In this document: positions 3 through 17,545 of the stretch, piece by piece
Position numbering within the stretch: the stretch's first letter is position 1
Layout: each line of letters opens with the position of its first letter
DNA from: Candidatus Rokuibacteriota bacterium
GTDB taxonomy: Bacteria; Methylomirabilota; Methylomirabilia; Rokubacteriales; JACPHL01
Direction of reading: 5' to 3'
Assembly (NCBI GenBank): GCA_016188625.1
Contig: JACPHL010000127.1
Location: 1-17,944, forward strand
DNA length: 17,944 bases
Notes under the pieces: generated by a model
Seen by the model: only the letters and a program-made list of their open reading frames with translations
Databases searched by the model: none
What the model was told of the DNA's origin: nothing
Made by a program: the position numbers and the translations under genes

Positions 3-590
3 CTCGATCCCGAGGCGCGCCGGCGGTTCGAAGCGCTGGCGCTCCCCCACCTCGCCAGCGTGTACCGGCTGGCGGTGCGTCTGGCCGGGAACGCCCAGGA
101 TGCTGAAGACCTGGCCCAGGAGACCTATCTCAAGGCGCTGCGGGCCTTTCCCGGCCTCCGCGAGCCGGAACGGATCCGCGCCTGGCTCTTCCAGATCCTG
201 AACCGGCTGGTCCTGGATCGGCACCGGGGCGGGTCGCGCGAGTTCGCCGTGGGCGACCTCGAGGCACTGGACCGGTTCTCCCTCTACGACCAGATTTGGG
301 ACGAGGATCCCTTTCCCTATTCGGACCGCCTCCACGAGGACTTCCTGGCCCAGTTCGACGACGAGGAGGTGCGGCGGGCCTTGCTGGCCCTGCCGGAAGC
401 CTACCGGCTCCCCCTGCTGCTGCTCTACGTGGAGGAGCTGACCTATAAGGAGCTGGCCGAGGTGCTGGGGTGCCCCGTCGGGACGATCATGTCCCGCCTC
501 CACCGGGGCCGGAAGATCCTGGAGCGGGAGCTCTGGGAGTGCGCCAAGCGGCGCGGATTGGTGAGACCATGGGACACGAACAGCGATTGA
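3..590 (+). CDS. ECF-type RNA polymerase sigma factor (5' partial)
   Basis: Directs RNA polymerase to a dedicated promoter set. The frame is open from the first full codon at 3, and the residues before the first in-window GTG (position 60), such as RRRFEALALPHLASVYRLA, already look like sigma region 2, so the true start lies upstream of the window. Region 2 follows (AGNAQDAEDLAQETYLKA, then RAWLFQILNRLVLDRHR). Region 4 is near the C-terminus, with LPEAYRLPLLLLYVEELTYK and the helix-turn-helix stretch ELAEVLGCPVGTIMSRLHRG. The spacing between regions 2 and 4 and the absence of region 3 fit the extracytoplasmic-function class. It overlaps the zinc-finger anti-sigma gene by 23 bases, so the two are probably translationally coupled. 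The promoter it recognises cannot be read here. The Sec methyltransferase and cupin directly downstream are the natural first candidates for its regulon (inference). Confidence 0.93.
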   Translation, partial: LDPEARRRFEALALPHLASVYRLAVRLAGNAQDAEDLAQETYLKALRAFPGLREPERIRAWLFQILNRLVLDRHRGGSREFAVGDLEALDRFSLYDQIWDEDPFPYSDRLHEDFLAQFDDEEVRRALLALPEAYRLPLLLLYVEELTYKELAEVLGCPVGTIMSRLHRGRKILERELWECAKRRGLVRPWDTNSD

Positions 591-811
591 CCTGCGCGGA
601 CGCGATGCGGGAGTTCTTCGCCTACCTCGACCGGGCGCTCTCCGGCGAGTCGCTGGAGGCCCTCGAGGTCCACCTCGAGGAGTGCCTCGCCTGCTGCGAC
701 AAGCTGGCGTTCGCCCGCCAGCTCGACGCCTTCATCAAGGCCAGGCTGGGCGAGGCCCCGCTGCCGCCGCGTCTGGAAGAGCGGATCCGGCAGGCCCTGG
801 ACCACGCATAG
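569..811 (+). CDS. Zinc-finger anti-sigma factor (ZAS/zf-HC2 type)
   Basis: Small soluble 80-residue protein expected to bind and inhibit the sigma factor encoded just upstream. It carries the ZAS zinc signature: C9, then H35-x3-C39-x2-C42 (HLEECLAC), with an extra C43 beside it. In ZAS proteins such as RsrA these ligands hold zinc and, in redox-sensing members, oxidation of the cysteines releases the sigma factor. Whether this one is redox-responsive is inference. No transmembrane segment is visible, so it should act in the cytoplasm. The ATG at 569 lies inside the 3' end of the sigma gene, the usual coupled arrangement. A longer reading of the same frame back to 470 would cover the sigma region-4 codons and is rejected. 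The next gene begins 19 bases after the stop. Confidence 0.88.
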   Translation: MGHEQRLTCADAMREFFAYLDRALSGESLEALEVHLEECLACCDKLAFARQLDAFIKARLGEAPLPPRLEERIRQALDHA

Positions 812-830: not shown

Positions 831-1634
831 ATGTCGTACTTCAGCGAGACGGAGGCCCGATCGATCATCCGTGACACCTACGGCCAGGTCCACTCCGACG
901 GGGTGGCGGTCGCCGAGGCCCTCTACTCGACCGAGGAGCTCGACCGCCTGCCTCGGGGCGCTGTGACCTTCGCCCTCGGGGTCGGCCATCCGGTCCGGCA
1001 CGCGGCGCTCAAGCCGGGCGAGACGGTGCTCGACCTGGGGTGCGGGGCCGGGATCGACACCCTCCTCGCGGCCCTGGCCGTGGGGCCCGGCGGCAGGGCC
1101 ATCGGGCTCGACATGACCCCGGCCATGCTGGAGCGGGCCCGGGAGCACGTCGGCCTGATCGGCCTCGGCAACGTCGAGCTCCGGGAAGGATTGCTGGAGG
1201 AGCTCCCGCTCCCGGACGCCTCGGTGGATGCGATCATCTCCAACGGCGTCCTCAACCTCTCGACCCGGAAGAGCCGCGCCCTGGCCGAGATGGTGCGGGT
1301 GCTGCGCCCGGGCGGGCGGGTCTCCCTCGCCGATCTCGTCATCACCGAGGCGCTGCCGGAGGAGGTCCTCAAATCCCCCGCGGCGCTCGCCGGGTGACTG
1401 GCCGGCACACTGGTGGAGCCAGTGTTGCTCAAGAAGTTCCACAACGTCGGGTTCGAGGCGGTCGAGGTCGTGGCCCGGAGGCCCTTCGGCCTCGGGGAGC
1501 TGGCGCGGTACCCCCTGTTCAGCAAGGAGTTCCTGGACTTCCTGCGGGGCGTCGTCCCCGAGCCGCGCCACGGGGAGCTCGTCTACTCCATCGTGGTGAC
1601 GGCCCGGAAGCCGGGGGAGCCGACGACCGCCTAG
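831..1634 (+). CDS. Selenocysteine-containing ArsM-like SAM methyltransferase (UGA at 1395-1397 read as Sec189)
   Basis: Class I SAM-dependent methyltransferase of the ArsM (arsenite methyltransferase) type, 267 residues if the in-frame TGA at 1395-1397 is read as selenocysteine. Seen: SAM motif I VLDLGCGAG (about 66-74), GLDMTPAMLERAR (92-104), ISNGVLNLS (136-144), RVLRPGGRVSLAD (156-168). Immediately after KSPAALAG the frame meets TGA and continues without shift as LAGTLVEPVLLKKF and GFEAVEVVARRPFG, the expected ArsM C-terminal region. ArsM proteins have a conserved Cys at this point (WAGCxAGAL), so U replaces it. A hairpin at 1405-1428 has the spacing of a bacterial SECIS. The other family cysteines are gone (GVG for GCG at 50-52, ISNGV for ISNCV), leaving only C71 in motif I. 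The substrate may therefore not be arsenite. A strong GGAGG-type site precedes the ATG. Alternative: a nonsense mutation, unlikely given two more Sec genes nearby. Confidence 0.85.
1405..1428 (+). promoter_or_regulatory. Putative bacterial SECIS hairpin for the methyltransferase
   Basis: The stem 1407-1413 (ACACTGG) pairs perfectly with 1419-1425 (CCAGTGT) around the loop TGGAG. It is extended by 1405-1406 with 1427-1428 across a bulged T at 1426. The loop begins 17 nt after the TGA (16 nt intervene) and has G within its first two bases. Both features match the general bacterial SECIS description. Confidence 0.72.
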
Positions 1635-1655: not shown

Positions 1656-2078
1656 ATGAAGGCTCGAGGGTGGCTCGGGGTGGTCGTGCTTGCCGTGGCG
1701 ACCGCGGCCGCGGTCGGGGCCGCCGAGGCCCCGAAGAGCGAGGTGTTCGACTTCAACGAGGAGGTCAAGAAGGGCGATCAGCGACCCGGCTTCACGTTCA
1801 GGCAATTCGTCAAGACCCCGAACTACACCGCGAGCGCGATCGGGGTCAAGGAAGAGATCAAGATGCACCGGCACAAGGACGGGAATCACGTGATCTACAT
1901 CGTCAGCGGGCAGGGCACGGCGATCCTCGACGGCAAGCCGATCACGTTGAAGCCCGGCACGGTCGTCCATATTCCCAAGGGGTCGGCCCACAACATCAAG
2001 GCGGAGGGGGGCGAGATGGTCATCCTGGACTTCGCCCAGCCGCCCTTCGACCCGGCGCAGATGGAGTGGATCAAGTAG
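1656..2078 (+). CDS. Exported cupin-domain protein
   Basis: 140-residue protein with an N-terminal signal peptide (MKARGWLGVVVLAVATAAA, probable cleavage near AAEA at 22-25), so it should act outside the cytoplasm. A single cupin barrel follows. Motif 1 is HRHKDGNHVIYIVSGQG from H71, with H71 and H73 as metal ligands and N77/H78 near where the acidic ligand usually sits. Motif 2 is GTVVHIPKGSAHN (101-113), with H112 as ligand. This is a compact mononuclear metal-binding fold; the sequence does not reveal whether it is an enzyme or a binding protein. It starts 21 bases after the methyltransferase behind a purine-rich ribosome binding site (about 1642-1652), so it belongs to the sigma/anti-sigma/methyltransferase operon. 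A strong terminator follows 54 bases after its stop. Confidence 0.86.
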   Translation: MKARGWLGVVVLAVATAAAVGAAEAPKSEVFDFNEEVKKGDQRPGFTFRQFVKTPNYTASAIGVKEEIKMHRHKDGNHVIYIVSGQGTAILDGKPITLKPGTVVHIPKGSAHNIKAEGGEMVILDFAQPPFDPAQMEWIK

Positions 2079-10507: not shown

Positions 10508-11161
10508 ATGACCCTGAAGGAACGGCTCGACAAGCTGAAGGAGGCCTCGAGGGGTCGCGTCCCCGAAGAGATCCACACCGTGATGGAGCGGGCGGTCGAG
10601 GACCTCCGCCGGTCCGGCATCCGCGACCGGGTCAAGAAGCCGGGCGACAAGGCCCCCGAGTTCAGCCTGCCCGACCCCGACGGGCGGCTGGTGAGCTCGA
10701 GGGACCTCCTGGCCCAGGGGCCGCTGGTCGTGACCTTCTACCGGGGCAAATGGTGACCGTACTGCAATGCAGAGCTGGCAGCTCTGCAGGAGGCGCTGCT
10801 CGAGATCCGGGCCACCGGGGCCGGCCTCGTCGCCATCTCCCCTCAGCTCCCCGAGCACAGCCGCGAGATCGCCGAGCGGCATAAGATCGCGTTCCCGGTC
10901 CTGAGCGACCGCGGGAACCAGGTCGCCCGCCAGTTCGGGCTCGTGTTCCAGGTCAGCGACGCGGTGAAGGCGATCTACCGGGAGAAGTTCAAGATCGACC
11001 TCGCCGCCGTCAACGGTGATGACTCCTGGACCCTCCCCATGCCCGGCCGCTTCGTGATCGACCAGACCGGGACGATCCGCGCCGCCGAGAGCGACCCCGA
11101 CTACACGCACCGGCCGGAGCCGGCGGCCACGGTGGAGGCGCTCCGCACGTTGGGTGGCTAG
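10508..11161 (+). CDS. Selenocysteine-containing peroxiredoxin-like (AhpC/TSA) protein (UGA at 10754-10756 read as Sec83)
   Basis: Thioredoxin-fold peroxidase of the AhpC/TSA peroxiredoxin-like family, 217 residues with Sec. N-terminal helix LKERLDKLKEASRGRVPEE, then GDKAPEFSLPDPDGRLVSS, then GPLVVTFYRGKW immediately before the TGA at 10754-10756. The same frame continues as PYCNAELAALQ. The family motif is FYRGxWCPYC, so the active site reads U83-P-Y-C86, a UxxC redox pair. The rest is normal for the family: GLVAISPQLPEHSREIAE, FPVLSDRGNQVARQFGLVF, and PGRFVIDQTGTIRAAESDPDYTHRPEP. Peroxide reduction using a selenol should be fast and could draw on thioredoxin-like donors (inference). The ATG at 10508 has GGGAGG six bases upstream. 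A longer same-frame reading back to 10385 has no support. A 9-bp perfect hairpin sits at SECIS distance. Confidence 0.93.
10768..10788 (+). promoter_or_regulatory. Putative bacterial SECIS hairpin for the peroxiredoxin-like gene
   Basis: TGCAGAGCT (10768-10776) pairs perfectly over 9 bp with AGCTCTGCA (10780-10788) around the loop GGC. The loop starts 21 nt after the TGA (20 nt intervene) and opens with GG, matching the bacterial SECIS preference for G at the loop start. Confidence 0.8.
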
Positions 11162-11176
11162 CGGTTCGGTGAAGGC

Positions 11177-11325: not shown

Positions 11326-11928
11326 ATGCCCTGGGCCGCCCCTGAGGCTCTAGAGTGGGTAGCCAGGCCGTCGGAGCACTGGATCCTTCCCGCGCTGGCC
11401 GGACGCCTGGTCGAGGTGTCGGGGATGGGGGCCGCGGGCTCGCTCACGCTCGCCTTCGGGCTCGTGCTGGACGCCCAGCGCCGTGGCGAGCCGGTGGCCT
11501 GGGTCACCCCCGCGGCGAGCAGTTTCTACCCTCCCGACGCTGCGGACGGTGGCATCGATCTCGACGCCCTGGTCGTCATCCGGGTCCCTGACCCGCGGGC
11601 CGGAGCGCGGGCGGTGGATCGGCTCGCGCGCTCGGGGGCGTTCGGGCTGATCGTCCTCGACCTCGGCGAGGCCGGAGCCCTCCCCACCCCTCTCCAAGCG
11701 CGTCTCCTGGGGCTCGCGCAAAGGCACTCCACCGCCATCGTCTGCCTGACGGCCAAGAGGGACATGGCCCCATCGCTGGGATCGCTCATCTCCCTGCGCG
11801 TGCACACCCGGCGAACGAGGGGCACCGACGAGCGGTTCAGGTGCGCGCTCACCGTCCTCAAGGACAAACGCCGGGGACCGACCTGGGCGCACGCGGAGGC
11901 GTGCCGTGGACCGGCTGGCCTGTGCTAG
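11326..11928 (+). CDS. imuA: ImuA-like RecA-fold protein of the mutagenesis cassette
   Basis: 200-residue protein with the position and fold of ImuA (SulA/RecA-like), which with ImuB helps DnaE2 carry out error-prone synthesis across DNA damage. Seen: a RecA-like start, [20 protein letters not shown], in which the Walker A equivalent (about 32-40) lacks the Lys, so ATP binding is doubtful. Further along are [17 protein letters not shown], a Walker-B-like hydrophobic strand [15 protein letters not shown] (about 103-117), and [18 protein letters not shown]. The ATG at 11317 lies inside the predicted -10 box, so the ATG nine bases later is preferred. No good Shine-Dalgarno precedes either. The 3' end overlaps imuB by 23 bases. 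The assignment rests mainly on context plus fold; similarity is weak in this family. Confidence 0.75.
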
Positions 11929-13289
11929 CGTCCCGGCGTTTCCCCTCCAGCTGCTGCTGCGGCGCCATCCGGAGTGGACGGCCCATCCCGTGGCCGTGGT
12001 CGCCGAGGAGACCCCCCGGGGCCTCATCCTCTGGGTGAACGAGACGGCCCGGCGGAGAGGCGTGCGCCCGGGCCTCCGCTACGCCGCTGGCCTGTCGCTG
12101 GCGACCGCGCTGCGCGCCGGGGTGGTCCCCCCGGCCGAGATCGCCGAGGGGATCGCCGCGCTCGCAGAGCAGCTGAGGCGCTTCACCCCCGATGTCGAAC
12201 CCTCCTCCGAGGAGCCGGGCGTCTTCTGGCTGAGCGTGACCGGGCTGCACCGGCTCTACCCCTCCCTGGACCGGTGGGCGCGGGCGGTGGCGGCCGACCT
12301 CGGGAGGGGAGGCTTCCGCGCCGGCGTGGTCGTGGGCTTCACGCGCTTCGGCACCTCCGCGGTCACCCAGATCCGGCAGGGCCCGGTGGTGCCGGGGAAC
12401 CCGGACGGTCGGGGCGCTGCTGCGCCTGCCGGCCGGTGGGCTGCTCGACCGCTTCGGGCCGCGCGTCTACCGCCTGCACCGGCTGGCCGCGGGCGGGCTG
12501 TGGGCGCCCCTCCAGCCGCATCCGGCCGAAGACCCGATCCAACGATGCCTCGTGCTCGACGAGCCCGCGACCACCGTCACGCACCTGCTCTTCTGCATCA
12601 AGCACCTCCTCCATCCCCTGCTGGCGGCGCTCGAGATCCGGGAGGAGCTGCTCGCCGAGCTGGCCCTTTACCTCCGGCTCGACGGGACGGAATGGCGCGA
12701 GGAGCGCGTCCGGCCGGCCGCGCCCACCCGGGATGCGAGGCAGGTGCTCGACCTCGTGCGGCTGCGCCTGGAGGCCGCGATGCTGCCCGCCGGGGTGGTC
12801 GAGATCGAGGCGACGGCGCGCGGGGTGCGCGCGGTGGGGGAGCAGCTCCAGCTCTTCACCGAGCGGCCGCAGCGCGACCTCGCCGCGGCCCACCAGGCCT
12901 TGGCCCGTATCCGGGCCGAGTTTGGCGACGACGCGGTGGTGCGCGCGCGTCTCACCGACGGGCATCTGCCCGAGGCCCGCTTCGCGTGGGAGCCGCTCGA
13001 GCAGGTCGCGCTCCCCCACCCGCGGGAGGGGGCGCCGAGGCCCCTGGTGCGCCGGATCCTCGCGGCGCCACTGCCCCTCCCCTCGTGGCGATGCCCAGCC
13101 CCAGAGGGCGGGCAGCGGACCCCCGGGTCGGTCACCCGCCTCCACGGGCCGTACGTCATCTCCGGCGGATGGTGGCGGGACGGGACGGAGCGCGAGTACT
13201 ACTTCGCCGAGACCCGGGACGGCGAGCTCCTGTGGGTCTACTACGACCGCAGCCGTCGGCGATGGTGCCTCCAGGGGCGGGTCGAGTAG
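11906..13289 (+). pseudogene. imuB: ImuB-like Y-family polymerase homolog, frameshifted with internal deletion
   Basis: ImuB is a catalytically inactive Y-family polymerase relative that bridges ImuA, DnaE2 and the sliding clamp. The GTG start at 11906 is backed by GGAGG. The first frame encodes [39 protein letters not shown] and [15 protein letters not shown] (up to about 12365). From about 12402 the sense continues in another frame: [58 protein letters not shown], and the family tail [17 protein letters not shown] ending at 13289. Only about 13 residues separate the two blocks where homologs have roughly 40-45, so about 30 residues are missing as well as the frame. The first frame happens to stay open into dnaE2, which would mislead a gene caller into one fused protein. 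It is either a real lesion or an assembly fault. Confidence 0.8.
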
Positions 13290-16200
13290 TCCCCGCCAGG
13301 GGGCCCTACGTCCCGCTCTGGTGCAAGAGCCACTTCTCGTTCCTCGAAGGGGCGAGCCACCCCGCCGAGCTGGTGGAGGAGGCCCACCGCCTGGGGTGTC
13401 CGGCCCTCGCCCTGACCGACCGCGACGGCGTGTACGGCATGGTCCAGGCGCACGTCGCGGCCCGAGCCCTCGGCCTCCGGCTGATCGTCGGCGCCCAGGT
13501 CACGGTGGACGACGGGTCGGTGATCGTCCTGCTGGCCCAGGACCGGAGCGGGTACGCCAACCTCTGCCGGCTCATCACCACGGGACGCCTCCGCGCCCCC
13601 AAGGGGGAGTGCGCCGTGACGTGGGACGAGGTCTCGGCGCATGCCCACGGGCTGCTCGCGCTGTGGGGCGGGGATCGCAGTCGGCTCGTCGGCGAGGGCG
13701 AGCCCGACGGCGTGGCCTCAAGGCTCCGCGACGCCTTCGGCGACCGGCTCTACGCCGTGGTGGTCCGGCACCGCCGGGCCGAGGAGATCCCGGAGGAGGC
13801 GCGACTGCGGGCACGCGCACGGCGCTACGGCCTGCCCCTCGTCGCGGCGACGGAAGCGCTCTACCATGCCCCGGCCCGGCGGCCCCTCCAGGACGTGCTG
13901 ACCGCGATCCGGCACGGCGTCCCCCTGTCGGCCGCAGGCCGGCGGCTCAAGCCGAACGCGGAGCACGCCCTCAAGGCCCCTGAGGCCTTCGCGGCGCTCT
14001 TCGCGGATGACCCGGCCGCCGTCGCCCGGACCCGGGAGGTAGCCGCCCGGTGCACGTTCTCCCTGGCCGGGCTCCGGTACCGCTACCCCTCGGAGCGCCT
14101 CCCCGACGGGACCACCTCGTCCCGGTGGCTCCGCCACCTCGCCTTCGAGGGGGCGCGGCGGCGCTACGGGGGGGCGGTGCCGTCCGAGGTCGCGGCGCAG
14201 CTCGACACGGAGCTCGCCCTCATCGACGCCCTCGACTACGGCGGCTACTTCCTGACGATGTGGGAGCTCGTCGAGTTCTGCCGCCGGCGCGGGATCCTCT
14301 GCCAGGGGCGGGGCTCGGCGGCGAACTCCGCCGTGTGCTACTGCCTCGGCATCACGGCCATCGACCCGGTGCGGATGGGGCTCCTGTTCGAGCGGTTCCT
14401 CTCCCGCGAGCGGGCCGAGCCCCCCGACATCGACCTCGACATCGAGCACGCCCGGCGCGAGGAGGTCATCCAACACGTCTACGAGGCCTACGGGCGCTCT
14501 CACGCCGCGATGGTCGCCAACGTGATCCGCTACCGGCCCCGGTCGGCGGTGCGCGACGTGGGCAAGGCCCTGGGGCTCCCGGCGACCGCGCTGGACCGCC
14601 TGGCCCGGCTCCTCTCCTCGGACAGCGCCCTCTCCCCCGAGGTGCTCGGACAAGCCGGGCTTGATCCCGAGGCGCCCGCCCATCGGCACCTGCTCCGGCT
14701 GGCCAACGAGATCCTGGATCTCCCCCGCCACCTCTCGATCCATCCCGGGGGATTCCTGCTGGGTCACGAGCCGGTCCACGACCTGGTCCCGATCGAGAAC
14801 GCCACCATGCCGGGGCGGACCGTGATCCAGTGGGACAAGGACGATCTGGAGGCGCTCGGTCTGTTCAAGGTGGACCTCCTGGGGCTCGGCGCCCTGACCC
14901 ATCTCGACCTCTGCTTCCGCCTGCTGAAGGAGCACCGCGAGATCGAGCTCTCGCTGGCCGCGATCCCGCCCGAGGACCCGGCGACCTACGACATGATCTG
15001 CCGGGCCGAGACCGTGGGCGTCTTCCAGATCGAGAGCCGGGCCCAGATGGCGATGCTGCCCCGTCTCCGGCCGCGCACGTTCTACGACCTGGTCGTGGAG
15101 ATCAGCCTCGTCCGGCCGGGCCCGATCACGGGCGACATGGTCCACCCCTACCTGCGCCGCCGGAACGGCGAGGAGCCGGTCGAGTACCCGCACCCGTGCC
15201 TGGTGCCCGTGCTCGAGAAGACCCTCGGCGTCCCGCTGTTCCAGGAGCAGGTGATGCGCCTGGCCGTGGTGGCCGCCGACTATACGCCCGGCGAGGCCGA
15301 TCAGTTACGCCGTGATATGGGGGCCTGGCGCCGGACGGGCCTGCTCGAGCGGCACCGGGAGCGGCTCATCTCGCGCATGCAGGCCAGGGGGATCGCCCCG
15401 GCGTTCGCGGAGCGGATCTTCTCGCAGATCCTCGGCTTCGGGGAGTACGGCTTCCCCGAGTGCGTCGTCGGCGAGACCCGGGTCATCGATGCCAGCACGG
15501 GGCGCTGGCTTACCATCGAGGACGTCGTGCAGCGTCGCACGCGGTTGCGGGCCACGCTCGTGTGTGATGCTAGGCTCCGTATCAAGAAACGCCGGGTGCT
15601 GGAGACGCTACGCCCGGGCGACCACATGGCCGCGGCGCGCCAGCTTCCCGCGCTGGGGCGCAAGCATTGGCCGCGCCACGAGATCGTCGTGCTCGCGGAT
15701 CTTCTGGCCGAAGGGAACCTGTGCCATCCCCGGACGCTGTATTTCTACACGGCGAACCCACTCCACCGAGACGAGTTCGTCCGCTGCGTGGAGCGCTTCC
15801 CCAACACGCGCGCCACCGTCGCGCGCCATCGGAGCGTCTGGAGCGTCCATGTCCGTCGCAAGGACGCCCCGCGGCCCATCGGGGTGGTCGAGTGGGCGCG
15901 CCGTCTCGGTCTGTGGGGCGTTGGTGCCCGCAACAAGCGACTTCCCGACGAGGTCTTCGAGCTCAGATCCGCGGACCTCGCCTTGCTGCTCGCCCGTCTA
16001 TGGGAAGGAGATGGCCATCTCTCGCCGGCGCTGCACGCCTCTTACGACACGGCCTCCCGCCGCCTCGCTGAACGAAGCCAGCATCTCCTCCTGCGACTGG
16101 GGATCATCTCGCGCCTCTATGAGCGCACCCGCCCTTACCGTGATCGGTCCGTGACGGGCTTCACGGTTACGGTGAGCGGCCTCGAGAATCTGGCCCGCTT

Positions 16201-17545
16201 TTACCAGTGGATCGGGCGGCGCTTCCTTGACCCGGCCAAGCGACAGGCCGCCTGCACCCTCGCCGCGGGTCCGGGCAATGGCCGCATGTCGCGCGACATC
16301 ATCCCGGTCAAGGTGCGGGACGTGATCCGTCGTGAGCGCGCCCGACGCGCTCTGACGTGGGTCGAGATCGCCCGCGCAACCGGCCTGGGCATCCGCGAGA
16401 TCCAGGCGCGCAGTAGCGCGAAGATCGGCTTTCGTCGCTGGGTCATCGCCCGCCTGGGACGCTACCTCGATTCGGATGAGCTCCTCCGGCTGGCGACGTC
16501 CCACATCTACTGGGATCGAGTGATTGCGATCGAGCCGCTTGGTGAGCAGGAGACGTACGACCTTCGCGTCGAGGGCGACCACAACTTCTTGGCCAATGAT
16601 CTCGTCGTCCACAACTCCCACGCCGCGAGCTTCGCCCTCATCGCCTACGCGACGGCGTGGCTCAAGTGCCACTACCCCGCGGAGTTCACCTGCGCGCTGC
16701 TCAACGCCCAGCCCATGGGGTTCTACGCCCCCGCGACCGTCGTCGAGGACGCCAAGCGCCACGGGGTGCGCGTCCTGCCCGTGGACGCGCCCCGGAGCGC
16801 CTGGGACTGCACCCTCGAGCCCTGCGCGGACAGCGCGACCGGCACCGCCGTGCGCATGGGCCTCCGGTACGTGAAGGGGCTCGGAACGAGCGACTGGACA
16901 CGGATCGAGGCGGCCCGCCAGGCCGTCCCCTTTGCGTCCCTGGCGGACTTCGTCCGCCGCACCGGACTGGACGAAGGGGCGCTGGCCGCGCTGGCCGAGG
17001 CGGGGGCCTTCGAGGGGTTGGGCCTGGATCGGCGCTCTGCGTTGTGGGACGTCCGGGGGCTCGTCCGGCTACGCGGGATGTCCCTGCCCCTGGGCCGCCC
17101 CGAGGCGGCTCCGGGGTTCGAGCCCCTCAGCGACGCCGAGCAGATCGCCTGGGACTATCGCCGCACAGCCCACAGCCCCCGAGGCCACCCGCTGGCGTCC
17201 GTGCGCGGGGACCTCTTGGCCCAGGGGCTCCCGGACGCCCGCACCGTCGCCTCCCTGCCGCACGGCCAGCGCGTGCGCTACGCCGGCCTGGTCATCTGCC
17301 GCCAGCAGCCCGCCAACGGCGCCGGGGTCGTGTTCATGACGCTCGAGGACGAGACCGGCTTCGTCAACGTCGTGCTCTGGGAGCGGGTCTTCGAGCGCTA
17401 TGCGGTGCTGGCGAAGACGGCGAGGCTCCTGGGCGTTACCGGGACGCTGGAGGTCGAGCAGGGGGTGGTCCACCTCGTCGCAGAGCGGTTATGGACCCCC
17501 CGCGTCCTGCAGCCGGAGAGCGCCCCCAGCCGGGACTTCCACTGA
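13262..17545 (+). CDS. dnaE2: DnaE2 error-prone DNA polymerase III alpha subunit, intein-containing
   Basis: Replicative-type C-family polymerase used in damage tolerance. The chain is 1427 residues with the intein and about 1042 without, the usual DnaE2 size. Seen: N-terminal PHP domain ([37 protein letters not shown]); polymerase core with [16 protein letters not shown]; catalytic Asp motif [59 protein letters not shown]; and [12 protein letters not shown], where an intein interrupts before [12 protein letters not shown] tandem helix-hairpin-helix region and an OB fold ([27 protein letters not shown]) end the chain. The start is the ATG at 13262, inside the 3' end of imuB by 28 bases; the GTG at 13265 is an alternative. 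Function requires the intein to splice, which is doubtful because its block B is missing. Confidence 0.92.
15461..16615 (+). mobile_element. LAGLIDADG homing-endonuclease intein in DnaE2, block B missing
   Basis: In-frame 385-residue insertion between FGEYGFPE and SHAASFAL of DnaE2. It begins with Cys1 ([10 protein letters not shown], block A) and ends with [15 protein letters not shown] (block F) and LVVHN (block G), followed by Ser+1. Two LAGLIDADG motifs are visible, LADLLAEGN (15692-15718) and [12 protein letters not shown] (15983-16018), each with its acidic residue, so the endonuclease may be intact. A helix-turn-helix-like stretch ([18 protein letters not shown]) follows. Unusually, residues after block A run from RIKKRRVLE straight into TLRPGDHMA, and no T-x-x-H (block B) exists before the first endonuclease motif; about 35-40 residues seem lost in frame. 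Codons are less GC-biased (TTG, CGT, TAT) than in the exteins, consistent with later acquisition. Confidence 0.88.

Follow-up and report, generated by a model that had tools for sequence, protein, structure and literature searches.

CmArsM, an arsenite methyltransferase, uses three cysteines to handle its substrates. All three are required for As(III), Cys174 and Cys224 are required for MAs(III), and DMAs(III) is bound by one thiol (PMC3877260). Substitution C72A led to the loss of iAs(III) methylation, and C174A or C224A to the loss of both steps (cited in PMC3877260). Selenocysteine (Sec) has been recorded in this family as well. Reviews describe Sec-ArsM by the motif UxxG (NF008823) and credit it to Fomenko et al. 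2007 (PMC13188914), with WP_011987699.1 as a listed example of a Sec arsenite methyltransferase (PMC13188914, PMC9312934); PMC9312934 and PMC2398784 likewise refer to a selenoprotein ArsM. NCBIfam holds three Sec-ArsM fusion families, namely ArsM/DUF2284 (NF041536), ArsM/AhpD (NF041537), and the methyltransferase/UXPK-star double selenoprotein (NF047649). The initial annotation of the gene described here held Sec to be far less familiar in a metalloid SAM methyltransferase than in peroxidases or formate dehydrogenases, which is too strong as a claim of novelty since such proteins are already catalogued in these papers and families. A Methylomirabilota MAG was recently reported to carry 63 selenoprotein genes (PMC13188914).

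The present gene lies in a 17,944-nt stretch of DNA (the window, meaning the whole stretch analyzed) from a 2.6 Mb Methylomirabilota MAG that is 84% complete, and very probably encodes a real selenoprotein. Its product resembles the UxxG proteins of PRK11873/NF008823 in fold, family, and Sec at the Cys224 column. Relative to CmArsM, however, it has no counterpart of Cys72 or Cys174; the N-terminal CC motif is missing too, and its score falls short of the family cut-off. Sampled NF047649 members (L150, L151, and L152) likewise have Sec at the column and neither partner cysteine; however, that family has its second Sec in an added C-terminal UXPK-star part, whereas the window protein has one Sec, no fusion, and 170 bits against a cut-off of 460. 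A Sec-ArsM domain is shared with NF041537 and NF041536, but their AhpD or DUF2284 fusions are absent here (scores of 174 vs 510 and 154 vs 575, respectively). With CmArsM, CrArsM, and human AS3MT (4fr0, 6cx6, 5evj, and 8xt7) the protein has in common the fold, the SAM motif, and the Cys224 loop; those enzymes are Cys throughout with three arsenic ligands, in contrast to one selenol. No earlier description of the missing partner cysteines or of the sigma/anti-sigma operon described below was found in the literature covered, the main recent Sec-ArsM paper lying outside it.

Decoding of the in-frame UGA

Translation of the methyltransferase gene (Table 1) confirmed a frame running from ATG 831, which is preceded by GGAGG, to TAG 1634 with the TGA as its sole interruption, yielding 267 residues with position 189 recoded. 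Conventional ORF calling reproduced the expected split into a 188-aa enzyme and a separate 73-aa ORF starting at GTG. GC content at codon positions 1, 2, and 3 is 0.76/0.48/0.95 before the TGA and 0.72/0.41/0.97 after it, unchanged across the codon.

Table 1. Features of the methyltransferase locus
Feature	Position	Strand	Evidence
ECF sigma factor, conserved upstream of orthologues	60..590	+	sigma70-ECF 81 bits
Anti-sigma factor, zf-HC2 zinc finger, HxxxCxxC motif, RsrA-like	569..811	+	antisig_RsrA 6.8e-12, zf-HC2 1.1e-6
Sec-containing ArsM-family class I SAM methyltransferase, 267 aa, U189 (very probable)	831..1634	+	profile search, AlphaFold model, structural match
UGA predicted to be read as selenocysteine 189 (CmArsM Cys224 column)	1395..1397	+	translation and alignments
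Putative bacterial SECIS-like hairpin, 7 bp stem, loop UGGAG	1407..1425	+	cross-species pairing, two-sided changes
Small cupin protein, apparent signal peptide, 21 nt past methyltransferase	1656..2078	+	ORF calling, locus comparison

Among 95 Methylomirabilota genomes searched, seven genes fell into the orthologous group, the window's gene included, with identities of 100, 74, 71, 69, 64, 54, and 51%. Each contains exactly one TGA, at column 189, so that the prospect raised in the initial annotation of close relatives ending at this stop was not borne out. Among 120 aligned homologues from many phyla, column 189, which corresponds to Cys224 of the solved CmArsM, is Cys in 88, Sec in 31, and a gap in a single truncated row; 119 of 120 are thus C or U, in agreement with the proposed position at a conserved ArsM cysteine, and a column devoid of Cys or Sec, also considered at the outset, was not what was found. 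Homology is conserved on either side of the UGA, and the tail downstream gave pN/pS below 1 in every orthologue pair, for example 0.17 (G001 vs G003b) and 0.38 (G000 vs G003a), with synonymous sites near saturation for the distant pairs. The downstream half had already been described as still under selection, and these values bear this out.

The genome encodes the full Sec machinery, whose absence had been put forward as grounds for doubt. Contig C273 carries selB (5.5e-114) and selA (1.6e-180) together with a tRNA-Sec with a UCA anticodon, and contig C179 carries selD (1.1e-118), whose own frame contains a TGA at the active-site position where Sec is usual (HGAGUACK).

Just past the UGA lies a SECIS-like hairpin formed by ACACTGG (1407-1413), loop TGGAG (1414-1418), and CCAGTGT (1419-1425), exactly the perfect 7-bp stem-loop noted previously, with the loop beginning 16 nt past the UGA. 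In this register, positions +10 to +16 after the UGA pair with +22 to +28, and the loop is mostly UGGAG, UGGAA, or CGGAG. Over the 31 Sec genes, 196 of 217 stem cells (90%) are paired, compared with 46% in Cys genes; 2000 shuffles gave a mean of 166 cells and a maximum of 180, and slid registers paired in 28-49% of cells. The window's copy forms 7/7 pairs and the more distant sister copies L103 and L099b only 4-5 of 7. Folding of the window hairpin as a single sequence was weak, without significance (MFE -14.5, z -1.06). The contrast between Sec and Cys genes, together with two-sided stem changes across species (TA/AT, GC/CG, and CG/GC), argues for an RNA structure, though a coding stretch could owe part of its pairing to protein constraint. 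Given a column of C or U, the Sec machinery in the genome, the TGA kept in relatives, and the hairpin pairing, insertion of Sec at this UGA appears near certain.

Fold, partner cysteines, and relatives

The best family for the protein is the PRK11873/NF008823 profile (5.5e-67, 226.1 bits), under its 263-bit cut-off. An AlphaFold model of the 267-aa protein (pLDDT 94.6) has the class I SAM-methyltransferase fold of ArsM type, with CmArsM and CrArsM as the nearest solved folds and CmArsM 6cx6 as the best structural match (Z 26.4, 2.0 A, 220 residues). The alignment puts Sec189 next to the SAM pocket, on the loop where CmArsM has its catalytic Cys224. The equivalents of Cys72 and Cys174 are Val51 and Gly139, respectively, and an N-terminal CC motif is also absent, leaving only the third of the three arsenic-binding positions, as Sec189. 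The initial label of an ArsM-like methyltransferase therefore stands for fold and family only, because one of the three positions is kept, and it does not extend to a proven arsenite methylase; that activity is best termed putative.

The loss of partner ligands is shared widely. In the first sample, Cys51, Cys139, and the N-terminal CC motif were missing in 31/31 Sec genes and both partner cysteines were present in 86/88 Cys genes; a second sample added 14 distinct Sec genes without Cys51 and Cys139, so that this "mono-selenol" layout is common to about 45 distinct Sec homologues. Wider sampling also recovered seven clear Sec-ArsMs from Thermodesulfobacteriota with both partner cysteines (L161-L166 and L180), not counting an eighth, L176, that is truncated and unreadable. 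A rule that Sec always accompanies partner-cysteine loss was rejected on the strength of these seven. As the second sample held both kinds of gene, Sec-ArsMs are best described, from their sequences, as having two layouts, "Sec plus two Cys" and "Sec alone." The sampled sequences indicate that the rule holds in one direction, since nearly every mono-chalcogen member found carries Sec. The single exception is L039, a Cys gene lacking both partner cysteines that is nested in a Sec group of the tree, a placement suggestive of reversion from Sec to Cys. Mono-selenol genes split apart in a 120-row tree but, once the Sec residue was masked, came together in a tree of 57 rows (support 79). The five Thermodesulfobacteriota Sec-ArsMs placed in the tree formed one branch within all-Cys ArsMs, so that more than one gain of Sec in ArsM is possible.

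Multiple copies were seen in some related genomes. G003 carries two Sec methyltransferase genes of the window gene's clade in tandem (L128, G003:C241), and a single contig of G078 carries one gene from each mono-selenol group (L129, G078:C143). In G001, a tandem copy is reduced to the C-terminal 58 residues with unrelated sequence adjoining and is either decayed or misassembled (L132/L006 1064-1237).

Operon context, proposed mechanism, and alternatives

Each of the five full orthologous loci has an ECF sigma/zinc anti-sigma pair ahead of the methyltransferase gene, which suggests that the gene is under stress control. The sigma factor, whose ORF was taken from GTG 60 with a true start that may precede the window, is 70-79% identical in G003, G078, G086, and G050, and the anti-sigma factor, whose antisig_RsrA match is under its own cut-off, is 58-70% identical in the four other orthologous loci. 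A cupin related to the downstream gene follows the orthologue only in G050. Other neighbors vary and include DsrE-like proteins (G078, G086, and G050), a TusA-like protein (G086), and DUF1326 with a PpoB2 "copper chaperone" (G003 and G001); these sulfur-carrier and metal-binding neighbors hint at soft-element chemistry, no substrate being named by them. The 17,944 nt contain no ars genes, and no member of an arsenic operon was found next to the orthologues.

A joint explanation of these features, which is likely to be correct, would run as follows. SelB with Sec-tRNA would read the UGA as Sec, aided by the hairpin, a step well supported by comparison across species. The product has the ArsM methyltransferase fold, as shown by profile, sequence, and model, and Sec189 occupies the Cys224 loop near the SAM pocket with both partner ligands lost. 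The lone selenolate may then bind or activate a soft substrate and present it to SAM. Because one chalcogen ligand is left, this substrate would be expected to need no more than one such ligand; dialkyl arsenicals such as DMAs(III), other metalloid or selenium/tellurium species, and a thiol or persulfide are candidates. To judge from the operon, the zinc anti-sigma factor probably releases expression under thiol, oxidant, or metal stress. We are evenly divided on a broader proposition, that the enzyme belongs to a widespread ArsM-descended "mono-selenol" class without partner cysteines, with one Sec and a different substrate, whose Methylomirabilota branch came under a redox- or metal-sensing ECF sigma/zinc anti-sigma switch. 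The sampled sequences indicate that many genes annotated as arsenite methyltransferase, or split at their UGA, are one-selenol enzymes unfit for the textbook three-thiol arsenite site, and in Methylomirabilota they tie a selenoprotein to a conserved operon that is probably under stress regulation.

The main competing account makes the protein an ordinary arsenite methyltransferase, with Sec merely taking the place of Cys224 and small thiols assisting the usual chemistry from As(III) to MAs/DMAs. The best family and the nearest solved folds point in this direction, as does the separate Thermodesulfobacteriota Sec-ArsM group that retains all three positions, and arsenite keeps some standing as a substrate because a partner protein, or glutathione and other free thiols, could supply the absent ligands. 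However, textbook three-thiol arsenite methylation is not expected from this sequence since Val51 and Gly139 replace two cysteines that are both required for it, the profile score falls short (226 vs 263 bits), and a distinct all-Cys ArsM with the complete cysteine set is already encoded in the same genome (G000:C190). Coexistence of the two enzymes fits a division of labor, and the ordinary reading is considered unlikely.

Much less probable are accounts in which the UGA is not Sec at all. In one, the gene is a truncated 188-residue enzyme or a pseudogene with a relic tail; in its favor, TGA normally means stop in this code, and annotation would yield two genes. This highly improbable reading was rejected because both the TGA, kept in 7/7 related genes down to 51% identity, and the tail, with its pN/pS, are conserved; in addition, homologues have Cys at the column and the genome decodes Sec. 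In the other, the UGA is suppressed with insertion of Trp, or of Cys through near-cognate reading, in place of Sec; recoding of TGA as Trp occurs in other lineages. Against it stand the tRNA-Sec and selA/B/D in the genome, the in-frame TGA at the catalytic Cys of a window peroxiredoxin and of SelD, both classical Sec sites, and the normal termination of ordinary window genes, making this the least probable of the alternatives.

Additional features of the window

The peroxiredoxin is a second selenoprotein candidate, of the AhpC/TSA type (10508-11164, + strand; Pfam 2.1e-30), with its TGA (10754-10756) at the catalytic Cys (YRGKWUPYC). A perfect hairpin, GCAGAGCT-GGC-AGCTCTGC, comes after this codon. 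Further downstream, a DnaE-type polymerase reading (11906-17545) that looks like error-prone DnaE2 contains an intein-like insert at approximately 15398-16597 (+ strand), which has a weak Intein_splicing match, under its cut-off, and a LAGLIDADG_3 domain (8.2e-15).
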